Shown here piece after piece: positions 14,176 to 21,620 of a stretch of 64,000 nt of DNA. The first letter of the stretch is position 1; every line of letters starts with the position of its first letter. The position numbers were made by a program, and so were the translations under genes. The stretch is taken from NCBI GenBank assembly GCA_937872925.1, contig CALMUT010000277.1:1-64000 (forward strand). The letters are read 5' to 3'. Source of the stretch: an uncultured Myxococcales bacterium. Lineage in GTDB: Bacteria; Myxococcota_A; Polyangia; Polyangiales; Polyangiaceae. The notes beneath the pieces were generated by a model. It was given only the letters and a program-made list of their open reading frames with translations, was not told where the DNA came from and ran no database searches.

Positions 14176-15171
14176 TCAGCGTTTGGTCACGTTCACTTCG
14201 CTCTGCATGCGAAGCGACGCGGCATCCATTCCCGGAATGGAGACCTTCATCGCCTTGTCCATGGTGGAGCGACCCGTCGGGTAGAACTGGCCCAGAGTAA
14301 AGGAAAGAGTGCCCTGGCTGGAGCCTGCCCCGGAGGTTCCACCCACGGGCTGTTGGGTTCGGCGCACTTTCACCTTGAGGGTGTTCCCGGCAAAGCTCAG
14401 CAGCTCGTAGACGCTGCTCTGGTTGATGGGACCGTCCTTTTCGTCCAGCGTCACGTCGACTTGCCATTCGGCGCCGACGCCGATTGCCTCACTGGGAAAC
14501 GCGTCACCCACTTCGACGGGCGCGTTGCCATCTTGGCCCCCCTGCTCCACATTGAATTCCCGCACGATCCCCTGGGGCGTGACCCACCCGCTGGCCACCA
14601 CCCGCTCGGGCATCTTGTTCCCCAGCCCACCGGCAAGTCCCCCCAGCATGCCACCCAGACCGCCTCCGCCCGCGCCCTGACTGACGGCGAAGGGCCCCGC
14701 CGAATAGCTGAACTTGGCGTCGCCGTTCTTCTGAACCTCGAGGATGCGAATGTCGATGGGCGCCTTCATCTCAATGTTGGGAAGCGGCAGCGAGATGCCC
14801 GTGATTTTCGAGGTGGATGCGAACTTCACGCTCTGTTTGGCGCCCTTGCGAAATGTGTGTTTGGCGATACGACGCGGTTCGGAACCGGGCTTGAGCAACG
14901 TGACTCGCGGTGCTCCTCCCGCTGGGATGGGCGTTGGACCCTGAGTCTCTAGGGGTTTGGGCCCTTCGCCCGCTGGCACCGGAACGGGCGGCGAGTCGTT
15001 GCCGCCCTGGGGCGGCGGCGTGCTCACGTCCCCTTGCGCGATATCTGTATCGTCGCGCTGGCCACCGACGTCAGCGGCCTGGGTCTCGATCATCGGGGGC
15101 GGTGGTTTCTTGGCGGCGCACGCGGTTGCGCAACCCAAGACCCATACAAATGCCCATTTGCTCATCGACAT
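14176..15171 (-). CDS. Lipoprotein of unknown function (DUF6263-like)
   Basis: A 331-residue exported protein. ATG 15171 is used, with a second ATG two codons on; the ORF extends upstream only as Arg/Gly-rich non-signal sequence. A short signal ends in a cysteine (LGC or ATAC), followed by a Pro/Gly/Gln-rich linker to about residue 95. The rest is beta-rich with a Gly/Leu-rich segment (GGGGLGGMLGGLAGGLG) and phrases such as GVGAEWQVDV and LSFTLGQFYPTG. The general pattern (a mean exponent of 'apply treatment, compare, integrate over surface') resembles DUF6263 lipoproteins, but I am not certain of the family. No operon partner. Confidence 0.6.
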   Translation of the reverse strand: MSMSKWAFVWVLGCATACAAKKPPPPMIETQAADVGGQRDDTDIAQGDVSTPPPQGGNDSPPVPVPAGEGPKPLETQGPTPIPAGGAPRVTLLKPGSEPRRIAKHTFRKGAKQSVKFASTSKITGISLPLPNIEMKAPIDIRILEVQKNGDAKFSYSAGPFAVSQGAGGGGLGGMLGGLAGGLGNKMPERVVASGWVTPQGIVREFNVEQGGQDGNAPVEVGDAFPSEAIGVGAEWQVDVTLDEKDGPINQSSVYELLSFAGNTLKVKVRRTQQPVGGTSGAGSSQGTLSFTLGQFYPTGRSTMDKAMKVSIPGMDAASLRMQSEVNVTKR

Positions 15172-15383
15172 GCGTCGTTTCTCGCAACGCGCGCCGACAG
15201 CGTCAACTCGCGGGGGGCGGCCCCGGTCATGCCAATGCGGCGGAACCCCGAGGCTCGGTCCGGTCCTGCGCACACTTCGGGCGCGTCCCGCTCACCGTAT
15301 TCCCCCAATACAATTCGGCACTTGCGGCTCGGTCCGGGAGTGCGACGCACCTGCACCACGCAGTTGCGCGTACACTAGGAGTG

Positions 15384-17708
15384 ATGAGTCGCCAATGCGC
15401 GCCCCCAGTCGCTCCGGCTTTGCTGAGCACTCTCTTGGCGGCGTTCACCCTTGCCCCGCCCGCAGAGGCCCAGCTCATCCGCAGTCCGTATCTGCACCAG
15501 GGCACGCCCAACTCCATGACCGTGGTCTGGACCACCGGCGCCAGCTCCGAAAGCGTCGTGAAGTATGGCAGCAGCCCGACGGCGTTGAGCCAAACCGCCA
15601 CTGGCCCCTCGGGCACACAGCACGAGGTCAAGGTCACGGGACTGACTCCCGGTTCACGCTACTTCTACAGCGTGGGCACTTCGACCCAAGTTTGGGCCGG
15701 TGCAGACGGCGATCACTACTTCGACACGTCACCCCCAGTGGGTACCAAATCCAAGTTCCGCACTTGGATCGTCGGGGACTCCGGCACGGGCGGGTCCCAG
15801 CAAGCAAAAGTCCGCGACGCGATGCTGACCCATGTCGGAGCGTACCGGCCGCAACTGTATTTGCATATGGGGGACATGGCATACAGCGACGGAACAACAG
15901 CCGAGTTCACGTCCAAGTTCTTCGCGATGTACCCGACGGTGCTCCGCAACACGGTCATTTGGCCCACCCTAGGCAACCACGAAGGTCACTCGTCAGATTC
16001 GGGAACCCAATCCGGCCCCTACTACACGGCGTACGTGCTTCCCAAGGCTGGCGAGGCGGGTGGCCTGCCGTCGGGCACCGAAGCCTACTACTCCTTTGAC
16101 TACGCCAACGTGCACTTCATCGTGCTCGACTCCCACGACTCGAACCGTTCGCCGACGGGCGCCATGCTCACCTGGGCGAAGAACGACATCGCCGCGACCA
16201 AACAAGAATGGGTCGTCGCGTACTTTCACCATCCTGCCTACACCAAGGGCAGCCACGACTCCGATACCGAGGGGCAACTGCGAGACATGCGTGAAAACGC
16301 CCTGCCAATCCTGGAAGCGGGAGGCGTGGACCTGGTGCTGGCGGGTCACTCCCACATCTACGAGCGGTCGTTCCTCGTCGACGGCGCGTACGAGACGCCC
16401 ACCACGGCGGCAGGCAAGTTGAAGGATCCTGGAGACGGCAAGGTAGACGGTACCGGCCCGTACCAGAAGCCGGCGGGCATCACCGCGCGCAACGGCGCGG
16501 TGTACATTGTGGCCGGCCACGGTGGCACGGGCGTTTCTGGGCCGGGCAACCACCCGCTTATGTATTTCACAGAGGTGCAGAACGGCTCATGCGTTCTCGA
16601 CGTGCAAGGCAATCGCCTCGCGGTCTTGAACATCCGCCATGACGGCGAAGTGACGGACCGCTTCACGATGGTCAAGGGGGAAGCACTGGTCATCGCTTCG
16701 CCGGACGGCGGCGAAACCCTGCAGCCCAATCAGCCGCATACCATTCGCTGGGCCAGCGTCGGCACCATCCCGAACGTCAACTTGGAGTACTCCATCGACA
16801 ACGGCCAGAACTGGACCAGCATTGCATCGAACATCCCCAACAGCGGCGCGCATGTCTGGGCGGTGCCAGCGGTCACCACCACTCAAGGGCTCGTCAAGGT
16901 CACCGCATCAGCCAAAAGCGCCGTCTTCGACGAAAGCAATGCCGGCTTCAACATCGGCAACGTCGGCCCTCAAGTCGCCATCGGTTTCGGCGACGAGTGG
17001 CGCTACCTCGAAGCGGGTCCGGACCCCTCCGCAAGCTTCGTGGATGCCAGTTTCGACGATTCGAGTTGGAAAACTGGCAAGGCGGAGCTCGGCTACGGCG
17101 ACGGGGATGAAGCCACGCTGCTGACCGACGCCGACCCGAATATTCCGACGGCATACTTTAGGAAGAAGATCACCCTTTCCGGCCTGGTCACCGACGCCGC
17201 GCTCAAGGTCCTCCACGACGACGGCGTGGTCGTGTACGTCAACGGCACGGAGGTCCTGAACAAGTACGTCACAACTACGGACTACGCGAGCTACAGCGGG
17301 AGCTCCCAAGACAACGAGCTTTCCACTGCTGCCGTGCCCACCAGCGCCTTCGTGAGCGGAGAGAACATCATTGCCGCACTGGTCAAACAAAGCAGCGCTG
17401 GTTCGAGTGACCTGTCCTTCGACCTGGAGCTGAGTGTGACGGTTCAAGGCACCTCGGGTCCGGACGGCGGCGTCGCTGGCAGCGGAGGCAGCGGAGGCAG
17501 CACGGGCAGCGGCGGAGCGAGCGCCGGCAACGGCGGAAGTGCTGGCAACGCCGGCAGCGGCGCGAACGCATCGAAGGACTCCGGAACCGACGAGAGCGGC
17601 TGTGGCTGCAAAATTCCGGCAACTCCGACCTCGCCCAGCGCGTGGCTCCTGAGTTTGATCGGCCTCGGGCTCCTGCGTCGGCGCGCGCCACGGGCACTTT
17701 CGCGCTGA
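15384..17708 (+). CDS. Purple-acid-phosphatase-like metallophosphoesterase with MYXO-CTERM tail
   Basis: A 774-residue secreted protein. ATG 15384 precedes a signal peptide cleaved after APPAEA (about 29). A fibronectin-III-like N-domain (30-115) leads into a calcineurin-like phosphoesterase with the metal motifs GDSGTG (~131), GDMAYSDG, GNHEG, FHHPAYT and GHSHIYER (~320). A Ser-Thr-rich/GPI-type beta domain follows (~440-515), then a jelly-roll-like region beginning DEWRYLEAG (~540-685), a Gly/Ser linker, and a C-terminal CGC, hydrophobic helix and RRR tail. That last signal is MYXO-CTERM, processed by myxosortase and known only from Myxococcota. Expected to be cell-surface linked; it probably hydrolyses phosphate esters. 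Confidence 0.9.
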   Translation: MSRQCAPPVAPALLSTLLAAFTLAPPAEAQLIRSPYLHQGTPNSMTVVWTTGASSESVVKYGSSPTALSQTATGPSGTQHEVKVTGLTPGSRYFYSVGTSTQVWAGADGDHYFDTSPPVGTKSKFRTWIVGDSGTGGSQQAKVRDAMLTHVGAYRPQLYLHMGDMAYSDGTTAEFTSKFFAMYPTVLRNTVIWPTLGNHEGHSSDSGTQSGPYYTAYVLPKAGEAGGLPSGTEAYYSFDYANVHFIVLDSHDSNRSPTGAMLTWAKNDIAATKQEWVVAYFHHPAYTKGSHDSDTEGQLRDMRENALPILEAGGVDLVLAGHSHIYERSFLVDGAYETPTTAAGKLKDPGDGKVDGTGPYQKPAGITARNGAVYIVAGHGGTGVSGPGNHPLMYFTEVQNGSCVLDVQGNRLAVLNIRHDGEVTDRFTMVKGEALVIASPDGGETLQPNQPHTIRWASVGTIPNVNLEYSIDNGQNWTSIASNIPNSGAHVWAVPAVTTTQGLVKVTASAKSAVFDESNAGFNIGNVGPQVAIGFGDEWRYLEAGPDPSASFVDASFDDSSWKTGKAELGYGDGDEATLLTDADPNIPTAYFRKKITLSGLVTDAALKVLHDDGVVVYVNGTEVLNKYVTTTDYASYSGSSQDNELSTAAVPTSAFVSGENIIAALVKQSSAGSSDLSFDLELSVTVQGTSGPDGGVAGSGGSGGSTGSGGASAGNGGSAGNAGSGANASKDSGTDESGCGCKIPATPTSPSAWLLSLIGLGLLRRRAPRALSR

Positions 17709-17738
17709 TCCCGTGAACGAGTCGACAATTGCGCTACA

Positions 17739-17751
17739 CTACGGACCGTAG
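17739..17751. promoter_or_regulatory. Perfect 6-bp palindrome upstream of the Cys-rich lipoprotein gene
   Basis: CTACGG-A-CCGTAG, 44 nt before the ATG at 17795 and 31 nt after the phosphatase stop. It overlaps the 3' end of a TTGCGCTACACTA string that also occurs, with one extra G, just before the phosphatase ATG (15364-15377). It could be an operator or a small hairpin; no T-run follows. Confidence 0.3.
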
Positions 17752-17794
17752 CGTCCTGTGGGCGCGCCGAAGCTTGCTGCCTGGAGACTTCACG

Positions 17795-18805
17795 ATGAAA
17801 CCCTCGCCGTTCCGCCGCGCGTGCAGCGCACTGCCTGTCCTGGTTCTTAGCGTCGCGTGCGGAGGAAGCGACGACGGTGGACTCTTCGGTAGTTCGGGTG
17901 GCGGCGGGTCCCCCAGTGGTGGCAGCGCCGGCGTCGGTGGCGGGGCGGGTGTTGCGGGTGCTTCAGGCGGCGTTCCCGGAAGTGGCGGCACCGGCACGGG
18001 CGGCCAGGCGGGCGGCGCGGGCACCCCCGGCTCTGGAGGGACTCCGGCCAGCGGCGGCGCCGCAGGCAGCGCCGGGTCCGCGGGAACAGGCGGCGCGCCT
18101 GGCTACACCCTGGACAATGTCTGCGCGAAGTTCTCGACGGAAATCTGCAAGCTGCGCCAGGGCTGCTGCACGTCCCAGTTTGGCTACGAAGAGACCACCT
18201 GCATCAAGAACGAAACCGCCGACTGTGAGGAAAAAGTCAAAGCAGTGAACGCGGGCAGCGCGACCTTCAATCCGCAGAACATCGATGTATGTCTCACTCA
18301 GGCAGCGCCCATGCTGCAAGCCTGTCAGTTCCATTCCAAGGCCTTGGCTGAGTATTTGGAAGTGCAAAATAGCTGCCGCAGCATCTTCAATCCCAAGAAG
18401 CAGCCCGGTAGCTCGTGCCAAGAAGACTCCGAGTGTGCTGCGGCGCCGACGCCGCACGGTGTATCCGGCTGCGGCGACCAATCCGGCAAGTGCTACCAGA
18501 GCTCGGTCGCACAGGCCGGGCAGAAATGTGATCAGACGGTTTACTGCGCAGCGGGCACGCGCTGCGCCAACGGCGGCGGCAGCGGCGGCAGCGTGTGTTC
18601 ACCGGTAAAGGTTGGCGACAATTGCTTTGGCGGGTCTTCAAGTTGCGGCTTCGGGCTGTATTGCTCGGGGGGCAAGTGTCAAAACGCCAAAGAGACCGGT
18701 ACTTGCTACTCAAGCTACTACTGCCAGTCGTTCTCGTGTCAGAGCTACCAGTGCGTAGCGCCCTGGCCCGTCGTGAGCGAGCGCAGCTGCGGCAAGTCCG
18801 GCTAG
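17795..18805 (+). CDS. Cysteine-rich lipoprotein with Gly/Ser linker
   Basis: A 336-residue protein with a lipoprotein signal (lipobox LSVAC, cysteine near 23). ATG 17795 has GGAG nine bases upstream. A Gly/Ser/Ala low-complexity linker covers residues 30-105. The remainder is cysteine-rich with about 24 Cys, in the pattern CxxDSECAAxxxGxxGC... and CaxGtrCxxG, as in many myxobacterial surface lipoproteins of no known function ('EB-like' or Dickkopf-like Cys modules). Probably exported and disulfide-bonded. It follows the MYXO-CTERM phosphatase on the same strand with an 86-nt gap, and converges with the small repeat protein. Confidence 0.7.
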   Translation: MKPSPFRRACSALPVLVLSVACGGSDDGGLFGSSGGGGSPSGGSAGVGGGAGVAGASGGVPGSGGTGTGGQAGGAGTPGSGGTPASGGAAGSAGSAGTGGAPGYTLDNVCAKFSTEICKLRQGCCTSQFGYEETTCIKNETADCEEKVKAVNAGSATFNPQNIDVCLTQAAPMLQACQFHSKALAEYLEVQNSCRSIFNPKKQPGSSCQEDSECAAAPTPHGVSGCGDQSGKCYQSSVAQAGQKCDQTVYCAAGTRCANGGGSGGSVCSPVKVGDNCFGGSSSCGFGLYCSGGKCQNAKETGTCYSSYYCQSFSCQSYQCVAPWPVVSERSCGKSG

Positions 18806-18865
18806 AGGAGTCCGCGCTCGCGACTTTTGTCACGGTTTCTGGCGCCGCACTCTGAAATGAAGAAA

Positions 18866-18895
18866 CGGCCGCGACACTCTATGGTGTGGCGGCCG
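18866..18895 (-). terminator. Rho-independent terminator between convergent genes
   Basis: Stem CGGCCGCGACAC (18866-18877) pairs with GTGTGGCGGCCG (18884-18895) with one mismatch and a 6-nt loop. On the minus strand it is followed by TTTCTTCATTTC, so it best fits as the terminator of the repeat protein gene; it also lies 60 nt past the end of the Cys-rich lipoprotein gene and may act in both directions. Confidence 0.7.
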
Positions 18896-18917
18896 CGTTA
18901 CGAGACCCTCGACAAGC

Positions 18918-19238
18918 TCAAGCGGGGCTTGGCTGCTTCTTCTTCTTGTCGTCGCTATCCGGCTTCTTGACGTCTTTGCTGCCGCCACAAGCGGGGCTTG
19001 GGTTCTTGCGGTCCTTCTTCTTAGAATCGTCCGCCTTCTTGCCGCCGCCACAAAGGGCCGCCGGGCTCGGGTTCTTGCGGTCCTTCTTCTTGGAATCGTC
19101 CGCCTTCTTGCCGCCGCCACAGAGGGCGTCAGCCTGAACCCCCGACGTGGTGGTGGAAGCGGCCAAAGCTGGAAGACTGACGAGCAAACTGGCCGCAGCG
19201 AGGCCGGAAACGAGGATTCTGAGAGACTTCATGGTCAT
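18918..19238 (-). CDS. Small exported Lys/Asp-rich repeat protein
   Basis: A 106-residue protein (ATG 19238, or ATG 19232 which has GGAA at better spacing). A clear signal peptide ends at ALAA near residue 30. The mature part is built from three units of about 23 residues: two near-identical units starting LCGGGKKADDSKKKDRKN and a third variant (CGGSKDVKKPDSDDKKKK), each ending PSPA and each with one Cys. It is highly charged and probably disordered in the periplasm or outside the cell. I do not recognise the family. A strong terminator follows at 18866-18895. The upstream frame, open to 19631, is only a shadow of the next gene. Confidence 0.75.
   Translation of the reverse strand: MTMKSLRILVSGLAAASLLVSLPALAASTTTSGVQADALCGGGKKADDSKKKDRKNPSPAALCGGGKKADDSKKKDRKNPSPACGGSKDVKKPDSDDKKKKQPSPA
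18994..19125. repeat. 69-bp-period direct repeat inside the small exported protein gene
   Basis: Two 63-bp blocks, 18994-19056 and 19063-19125, start 69 bp apart and differ at three positions. All three changes are synonymous in the minus-strand reading frame (Pro, Ser and Leu codons), so the repeat unit appears to be maintained at the protein level. Confidence 0.85.
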
Positions 19239-19364
19239 TCCGTTTTGGGGCATCGCCGCCTTCACGTCAAGGTCTAGGGCGCAATCGCGGGATTCTCGGC
19301 GTCCGCAAAGGGTTTTTCCTCCACTCTCGACCCCAGAGCGCCACGGTGCAAAAAGGCGATGGTC

Positions 19365-21620
19365 ATGAAGATCGTATGCATTGGGGGCGGCCCGGCGGGT
19401 CTGTATTTCGCGCTGCTCATGAAGCGGGACGGGGCGGACCACGATGTGCACGTATACGAGCGCCACCGTGCGGGCGACACCTTCGGCTTCGGCGTGGTGT
19501 TCAGCGATCAAACCATGGGCTACCTCGCGGACGCGGACCCAGAGAGCCACGCCGAGATCCGCAAAGCCTTGGCGCACTGGGATGACATCGATACCCACAT
19601 CCATGGCGAAGTCATACGCTCGACGGGGCACGGTTTCTCAGGGCTTTCGCGTCAGACGCTGCTGAATATCTTGAGCAAACGCTGCGACGACGTGGGGGTG
19701 CATTTGCACTTCGAACATGAGGTGAGCGCCGACGTCACGCAATTCGCCGACGCCGATCTGATCGTCGCCTGCGACGGAGTGAACTCGGCGGTGCGCGATC
19801 GGTATGCAGACCGTTTCCAGCCCGAAGTCGACTTTCGCCCGAATCGATTCGTGTGGCTCGGCACGGACTATCCCTTCCAGGCCTTTACGTTCTACTTTAA
19901 TGAAAACGTCGATGGCTTGTTCCGGGTGCACGCCTACCGCTACGAAGAGGGGACGAGCACCTTCATCGTCGAATGCACCGAGGAGACGTGGAGAAAAGCC
20001 GGGCTGGACAAGACCTCCGAAGACGAAACCGTCGCATATTGCGAGCAGTTGTTCGCGAAGGAGCTCGCCGGCCACCGGCTGTTGAAGAACAAGAGCGTTT
20101 GGAGACAGTTTCCCACAGTGCATTGCGCGAAGTGGCATTTCGACAACGTCGTGCTGCTGGGCGACGCGGTGCATACGGCCCACTTCTCCATTGGCTCCGG
20201 CACGAAACTCGCGATGGAGGACTCCATTGCGCTCCGCGACGCTCTGGCCGCGCACAGCGAAGTCGGGGCGGCCCTCGACGCCTACGAAGTCGAGCGTCGA
20301 GGCACTGTGGAGAGCCTGCAACGCGCAGCCCAAGTCAGCCTGGAGTGGTTCGAAAATACGGAACGCTACCTGCGGCTTCCCGCCCTTTCCTTCACCTTTA
20401 GCATGCTCACTCGCAGCCTCCGGGTGACCCACGAGAATCTGGCGCTGCGGGATCCGGCGCTGATCGCTCAGGTGGATCGAGCCGTTGCCGAAACGGCGGA
20501 AGTGCAATCCGGGCGGGCAGTGTCACAAGATACGGTGCCCCCTCCACTCTTCACTCCATTCAAGCTGCGGGACCTCGTGCTCGAGAACCGCATCGTCGTG
20601 TCTCCCATGTGCATGTACTCCGCGGAAGACGGCACGGTCGGTGACTTCCACTTGGTGCACCTGGGCAGTCGGGCAATCGGCGGCGCCGGCCTAGTGATGG
20701 CGGAGATGACCAACGTCTCAGCCGATGCTCGCATTAGTCCCGGCTGCGCCGGCATGTACGCCCCGAAGCATGTATCTGCCTGGAGGCGCATCACTGAGTT
20801 CGTGCACACGCAATGTCCCGCGCGCATTGGGATCCAAATCGGGCACGCGGGTCGCAAAGGCGCCACGCACCGGCTCTGGGAAGGCCCCGACGTGCCTCTC
20901 GACGAAGGCGCCTGGCCCTTGCTCTCTGCGTCGGCGCTGCCCTACCTCCCGGGCAGCCAGGTGCCCAAAGCCATGGACGCGGGTGACATGGCACGGGTCG
21001 TTGCGAACCATGTTCGCGCGGCGCAAATGGCCGACGAAGCCGGCTTCGACCTGTTGGAGTTGCACTGCGCGCACGGCTACTTGCTCGCGAGCTTTCTTTC
21101 CCCCCTGACCAACCTTCGCAAGGACGCCTACGGCGGTGACGTGCAGGGGCGCCTGAAGTTCCCCTTGGAGGTCTTCGACGCAGTCCGCAAAGCCTGGCCC
21201 AAAGGGAAGCCCATGAGCGTCCGGATCTCCGCTTGCGATTGGGCGCCCGGAGGACTGACAGCGGAAGACGCCACGAGCATCGCGCGCGCACTTGCCGAAC
21301 ACGGCGCAGACATCATCGACGTTTCCGCCGGGCAGACGGTGCCCAATCAAAAACCCATCTACGGACGCCTATTTCAAACGCCGCTGTCTGAGCTGATTCG
21401 ACTGGAAACAGGGATCCCCACAATGACCGTCGGTAACATCCAGAGCTACGCGGACGCCAACAGCATCATTGCGGCCCAGCGCGCCGATCTCTGTGTGATC
21501 GCACGTGCGCATCTCTACGATCCTTATTGGACGAAGCACGCGGCCAACGCGCTCGGATACGACGCCCCCTGGCCGGAGCAGTACCGCACGGTGCAAAAGT
21601 ACAATTTCCGCTTTTCCTGA
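19365..21620 (+). CDS. Bifunctional salicylyl-CoA 5-hydroxylase/oxidoreductase
   Basis: A 751-residue fusion. The N-terminal half is an FAD-dependent aromatic hydroxylase: the dinucleotide motif [10 protein letters not shown] at 5-14 and [14 protein letters not shown] near 265-278, matching the SdgC-type salicylyl-CoA 5-hydroxylases that form gentisyl-CoA. The C-terminal half (from about 390) is an old-yellow-enzyme-type NADH:flavin oxidoreductase, with [24 protein letters not shown] and QIGHAGRKG. This fused architecture is known for the family. ATG 19365 is preferred to 19359 because AAGG lies eight bases before it. No salicylyl-CoA ligase, gentisate dioxygenase or thioesterase is adjacent, so the physiological substrate may differ. 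Confidence 0.85.

Follow-up and report, generated by a model that had tools for sequence, protein, structure and literature searches.

A lineage-restricted Polyangiaceae family of predicted exported charged repeat proteins with one cysteine per unit and a tentative role as thiol carriers

The nearest known kind of protein to the one described here appears to be the exported, cysteine-motif precursors of the MNIO enzymes; most of these precursors carry Sec signals and cysteine motifs, some of them in repeats (PMC12452194, PMC12668002), and a loss of 4 Da per unit is reported for EGKCG repeats (PMC12668002). Bufferin and oxazolin/captophorin precursors share with our family predicted Sec export, short length, Cys and Gly content and a variable number of Cys units. 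In contrast to them, the family has CGG/CGD/CGP contexts followed by charged tails in place of EGKCG or a BufA-type match. It further differs from the MNIO-modified RiPPs, in a comparison based on the MNIO gene rather than on its DUF2063 and DoxX partners, in that no MNIO gene was seen in its loci and one member genome has no detected MNIO. A second point of comparison is Asr (acid resistance repetitive basic protein, NF033636), which is likewise exported, low-complexity, charged and repetitive; unlike Asr, the family has an invariant cysteine and its members may be strongly acidic. Literature searches showed no published description of this exported single-cysteine charged repeat family among the results listed.

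The window, i.e., the whole stretch of 64,000 nucleotides analyzed here, belongs to a contig (G000:C277) of an uncultured Polyangiaceae bacterium, whose genome comprises 9,389,512 bases in 377 contigs. The region singled out in a preliminary description of this DNA corresponds by translation to one gene on the minus strand (18918–19232), a strand which that description had left unstated; its parts are as follows:

18918–19232, minus strand: coding sequence, with the ATG at 19232 preferred and that at 19238 also in frame, and the stop codon at 18918–18920 (from translation, promoter spacing and in-frame orthologues)
19161–19232, minus strand: predicted Sec signal peptide MKSLRILVSGLAAASLLVSLPALA, with K/R, a hydrophobic core and ALA (heuristic call, no SignalP run)
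19053–19121, minus strand: unit 1, CGGGKKADDSKKKDRKNPSPAAL (from unit comparison)
18990–19052, minus strand: unit 2, CGGGKKADDSKKKDRKNPSPA, the same protein sequence as unit 1 with silent differences only (from TRF and unit comparison)
18921–18989, minus strand: unit 3, CGGSKDVKKPDSDDKKKKQPSPA, corresponding to unit 2 of the orthologue from the same genus
19266–19271, minus strand: CTTGAC, a −35-like promoter element conserved in the family
19242–19247, minus strand: CAAAAC, a weak putative −10 element after a 17-nt spacer (placed by eye from the spacing across members)
18865–18896, minus strand: probable terminator, a hairpin followed by TTTCTT (from a folding test), shared with the convergent gene at 17729–18805

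The protein reads, in order, MTMKSLRILVSGLAAASLLVSLPALA-ASTTTSGVQADAL-CGGGKKADDSKKKDRKNPSPAAL-CGGGKKADDSKKKDRKNPSPA-CGGSKDVKKPDSDDKKKKQPSPA. Of the two possible starts, the ATG at 19232 (MKSLR...) is more likely than that at 19238, given a promoter-like −35 element 38 nt upstream of the former. The gene stands alone, between a convergent gene for a Cys-rich protein (17729–18805) and a divergent gene (19359–21620) that a Pfam scan identified as an FAD-monooxygenase/FMN-oxidoreductase fusion (PF01494 and PF00724). The convergent product (17729–18805, plus strand) is Gly/Ser-rich with a long cysteine-rich C-terminal part and gives a weak, below-cut-off match to the EB module. Beyond it, a long frame (14910–17708, plus strand), metallophosphatase-like by eye, ends in CGC, a hydrophobic stretch and an Arg tail, reminiscent of a MYXO-CTERM sorting signal. 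The terminator had initially been called strong; the hairpin is indeed stable (z −1.94, with 10 of 200 shuffles folding at least equally well), but its T-run is modest and a scan for consensus terminators did not list it, so that the adjective was generous.

A tandem period of 69 bp is evident at 18994–19127 (TRF; 1.9 copies, 95% matches). Units 1 and 2 encode the same protein sequence and differ by four silent changes over a 63-bp CGGG...PSPA stretch of 21 codons, with a fifth difference in the preceding Leu codon; all of these are at silent third positions. The preliminary description had counted three such differences: their silent nature holds, while the number is four over the 63 bp. The open frame also bears out its third unit with the CGG..PSPA pattern and its single cysteine per unit in a Lys/Asp-rich context, seen in all three units. 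The probability that all the differences between units 1 and 2 would be silent is 0.002 under an equal-rate site model that ignores mutation bias; as with the other unit-pair P values, which assume equal rates over sites, this figure is indicative only. The window contains two copies of the DNA pattern coding for CGGGKK, where shuffles give an expectation of 0.00. Across 108 Polyangiaceae genomes it is not enriched, with 17 places in 15 genomes against about 27 for a reversed control. Its places in G000, G001 and G007 belong to the repeat family and the other 12 do not, these being, by eye, five lipobox 'AC-GGGKK' lipoproteins, two SEC-C-like tails and five other frames.

With the window included, the family has at least 16 members in the 108 genomes, 15 of them complete; the count is a minimum because the anchor neighborhood was taken for only part of these genomes. 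Sequence and profile searches recovered three members in a set of 59 genomes (G001, G007, G010), two in one of 183 (G100, G103) and eight in 317 genomes of the class (G022, G067, G072, G073, G097, G099, G102, G104). Inspection of 40 stretches chosen by synteny, of which 39 had the DUF3293 gene as their anchor, added G036 and G101. The filter applied to candidates required one Cys or more, a start resembling a signal peptide and at least 25–28% K/D/E; these traits were thus partly selected for in G036 and G101, with the remaining members first found by sequence. Among the anchor loci of the best 80 of 81 relatives, eight have a member (G001, G007, G022, G036, G100, G101, G102, G103), none of them new, and seven of the 48 loci with at least 6,300 nt downstream do so; the flanks of these loci end at 10 kb, so that a gene 15 kb away, like that of the window, would escape. 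The preliminary description had suggested looking for the same unit and its copy number in related genomes, and had named frameshifted copies in close relatives as counter-evidence. The relatives recovered, including those from other genera, are in frame, with one to seven units in the 15 complete members. No frameshifted copies were seen: in the relative from the same genus, the gene is intact and in frame, has two units and sits in a matching neighborhood.

Several matches were set aside. Four of the 18 genomes matched in the class search (G011, G130, G135, G236) yielded no candidate under the signal/charge/Cys filter, and three of nine matches in the search of 183 genomes were dropped (G122, G150 and a G067 place at 2839294), G122 and the G067 place on the filter alone. 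G090/L041 is a larger lipoprotein and L033 did not fit. A phylum-level search matched 32 genomes, four being known members and three having lookalikes; L173, a poly-Asp protein that got through the filter, was also set aside, and the remaining phylum-level matches among the loci read, along with G001:C24, held no candidate. The lookalikes (L187:1051–1536, L172:1501–1701 and L176:159–359) are signal-bearing proteins of the same build from other families of the phylum, with five, two and one units, respectively, of the type CPGHDK, CPGKDH or CGGGKKK; the 120 nt upstream of each is devoid of CTTGAC. Within the genome of the window, a single-sequence search found no second copy (seven other matches, E of 0.148 or worse). 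A scan of genome contigs with profile A2 turned up 586 pattern stretches, none of which led to a confirmed relative. By profile, however, the window's genome has one matching gene on contig C67 (E 1.5e-4; L278:5341–5535, minus strand), whose 64-aa product bears a signal, LCGGGKCDCPHC and a tail rich in Lys. It resembles the family in its signal-like start, LCGGGK and Lys-rich tail, and differs in being single-copy, in having a CDCPHC cluster and in lacking CTTGAC in the 120 nt upstream. It is possibly a metal-binding distant paralogue.

Unit number varies widely across the family: seven of the 15 complete members have a single unit (G022, G073, G099, G101, G102, G103, G104), G001, G067 and G100 have two, the window, G007 and G010 have three, G097 has five and G036 seven; the G072 gene, cut by a contig end, has at least two. 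Units 1 and 2 of the window gene resemble the first unit of the G001 protein and unit 3 its second, which points to an in-frame gain of a unit here or a loss in the other lineage; a gain in the lineage of the window is favored, as units 1 and 2 are near-identical. In the eight multi-unit members, mean unit identity is 0.81 within a protein (43 pairs) vs 0.43 between proteins (308 pairs), a mark of concerted evolution. Silent-only pairs recur: the four silent and no replacement changes between the window's units 1 and 2 are paralleled by five and none in units 2 and 3 of G007, and by three and none (units 3 and 5) and two and none (units 4 and 6) in G036. Other pairs have both silent and replacement changes (G010 units 2 and 3, four and three; G036 units 2 and 5, four and five; G097 units 4 and 5, three and two). 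The silent-only pairs of the window gene and G007 are best read as purifying selection on the protein.

The signal-like N-terminus suggests that the product is Sec-exported, in line with the signal peptide noted at the outset: a hydrophobic N-terminus is present in frame, and by the heuristic a Sec-signal-like start precedes a Cys-containing mature part. The call is heuristic, and the same heuristic served as a filter for some members, with others read by eye. Lipoprotein status was rejected by eye as no lipobox directly precedes the first Cys, Cys40 of the window protein lying 13 residues after the ALA site; lipobox-like motifs are found only in G010 (ALAC) and G097 (VLAC). The Cys of the first unit and the Gly following it are invariant in 15 aligned members, in a CGG, CGD or CGP context. 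With cleavage placed by a simple rule, the mature parts of 15 members have a charged fraction of 0.35–0.54, with net charge ranging from +10 (window) to −35 (G036), and single-unit members have 24–39 mature residues. The spread in net charge argues that charge density and the thiol, rather than the sign of the charge, are what matter. Because that sign is free among members, DNA binding, one of the options floated earlier, is unlikely as a shared role. AlphaFold2, run on a six-sequence alignment, returned a mean pLDDT of 53 and no listed helix or strand, suggesting that the protein is disordered in the cell.

Database scans left the initial impression of an unfamiliar family intact: neither Pfam (four members) nor NCBIfam (eight members) gave a match over cut-off, and PHROGs (three members), PDB sequences (one) and plasmids (one) gave no convincing relative. 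We took as compositional both a match to phrog_2690, of unknown function (E 0.0013, over signal and repeats), and a below-cut-off match of G022 to JUQZ_fam_ocin of NCBIfam (E 0.0065, mostly over the signal).

A shared neighborhood was found at 10 of the 15 loci examined (G072 left out); the fair count is eight of 13 loci found by sequence alone, since G036 and G101 came through the anchor. The shared block lies upstream on the same strand and comprises a DUF3293 gene and a response-regulator-like gene (labeled by eye), with a further PDZ-like gene (also labeled by eye) in eight of the 10 syntenic loci. The DUF3293 gene of the window is 15 kb away (G000:C277:34547–35008). The divergent monooxygenase gene is common to G000, G001, G036 and G067, and the G010 locus shares the 720-aa gene of the block; those of G097, G099, G104 and G073, the last on a 4.3-kb contig, are non-syntenic. 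Plasmid-borne cargo was rejected given the shared chromosomal-type neighborhood and the lack of a plasmid match for the one member searched. Five of the 16 member loci have an Fe(2+)-trafficking gene (PF04362, one copy scanned): it is directly downstream of the family gene in four loci of one genus (L211, L219, L233, L234) and 3.6 kb from it in G036 (L131), and none shows up in the window or elsewhere on its contig. This neighbor is a weak hint of a metal or redox context.

In 14 of the 16 members (all except G097 and G073), TTGAC begins 32–38 nt before the start codon; a binomial figure for this would overstate independence, as the members are related. By comparison, six of 234 genes have TTGAC in the wider −60 to −23 region of their called starts, and it is present in 599 of 32,000 random 37-nt windows. 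In a second control, which accepted starts anywhere in frame up to codon 80 as called starts are unreliable, CTTGAC at −39 to −32 was found in four of 239 genes, three of them family members, leaving about one in 236 non-members. Members outside the shared neighborhood (G010, G099, G104) also have the CTTGAC/TTGAC element. With a −10 element about 17 nt after the −35, transcription would begin no more than a few bases from the ATG, implying a near-leaderless mRNA.

From these comparisons, we regard the gene and the lineage-restricted Polyangiaceae repeat family as real, and the anatomy of the family as well supported. As to function, we prefer a reading in terms of metal/thiol chemistry, namely an extracytoplasmic disordered thiol carrier, a sponge for soft metals or oxidants with its capacity set by unit number, to which we assign a probability of roughly 0.35. 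In such a mechanism, a small chromosomal gene would be transcribed by itself, and its promoter would lie near enough to the start codon to leave the mRNA almost without a leader. The protein would be exported via Sec and the signal removed, leaving a polyampholyte tail that stays unfolded and offers, in each unit, a single cysteine within CGG, CGD or CGP. Whole units would be gained and lost in frame and remain alike within a gene, as is seen in the unit comparisons. Between lineages the unit sequence would drift with the cysteine, the Gly and the high charge density kept, as is also seen, with two members entering via the charge/cysteine filter. The charged spacer would keep the thiols soluble and exposed, and these could capture soft metal ions or oxidants. 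Against this reading, the promoter is housekeeping-like and does not suggest a metal-induced gene. The family is probably dispensable, being lineage-restricted (found in 16 of 108 genomes). The conserved cysteine could instead serve for modification or attachment.

Of the alternatives, an exported hydrophilin-like or Asr-like disordered stress protector, with the cysteine incidental or used for dimerization, seems unlikely. Disorder and extreme charge would suit it, as would a weak match of the G067 member, the one member concerned, to the Asr acid-shock model NF033636 (E 0.033), which at 15 bits falls short of the 50-bit cut-off. It leaves unexplained, however, why the feature best conserved in members of one to seven units is the single Cys of each unit; Asr-type proteins are not known to need a cysteine.

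More doubtful is a role as precursor for an MNIO enzyme (PF05114) acting in trans, in bufferin or oxazolin/captophorin style, with each unit a core whose cysteines become thiooxazole-type copper ligands. MNIO genes are present in 15 of the 16 member genomes, and an MNIO-linked precursor of the window's own genome has K/D/T-rich spacers (SCGAGGCGGDKKAADTKK...). Yet this co-occurrence is uninformative, because MNIO is found in 90 of the 108 family genomes (15 of 16 members and 75 of 92 others). Moreover, G072, 93% complete and with its contig-cut member, has no detected MNIO; among 18 member and lookalike genomes without G072, MNIO is found in 17, the miss being a lookalike genome that is 58% complete. 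No MNIO was found in the member loci: tblastn with two MNIO queries from the genome (E 1e-5) against 284 loci with few-kb flanks and the window, a search that divergent MNIOs could escape, matched only the MNIO loci themselves (L063–L066). The genome's own MNIO loci lie on other contigs (C136 and C308), each with its own adjacent precursor-like gene. The units also lack EGKCG, which is absent from the translations, and no BufA-type model was matched over the NCBIfam cut-off in the eight members scanned. Of the exported precursor-like genes beside these MNIOs (L066:4592–5026 and L065:4982–5251, both minus strand), one has a product with CGAGGCGG/CGAGTCG ends and a K/D/T-rich spacer, and the other gives a below-cut-off BufA2 match (E 0.0036).

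We consider it improbable that the protein is a structural part of the extracellular matrix or spore surface held together by disulfides. The multi-cysteine disordered repeats of G036 (seven units) and G097 (five units) could cross-link, but a single cysteine in seven of the 15 complete members permits no network, and with nearly half of the members so built, such a role is unlikely to be shared; the structural option raised earlier is thereby weakened as regards a cross-linker. That the frame is open by chance, or is low-complexity sequence in decay, is highly improbable: the composition is low-complexity and Lys/Asp-rich frames arise easily, but the restriction of unit divergence to silent changes, the orthologues that are in frame and have signal-like starts, and the conserved neighborhood and promoter placement speak against it.

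Returning to the thiol-carrier reading, its fullest form casts these proteins as lineage-specific exported disordered 'thiol sponge' peptides, with a capacity for binding metals or oxidants tuned by recombination-driven unit number (one to seven), a conserved near-leaderless promoter and independence from a linked modification enzyme, and in that form it is more tentative still. Low-complexity exported proteins are easily dropped by annotation, and the fixed promoter-to-start distance of 32–38 nt offers a handle for seeking more such genes; the single-unit members are small enough for synthesis and direct testing. The neighborhood and promoter placement indicate that the family has been retained although orthologues have had most of their unit sequence replaced. 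It exemplifies concerted evolution in a disordered protein, with the thiol and the charge density kept.
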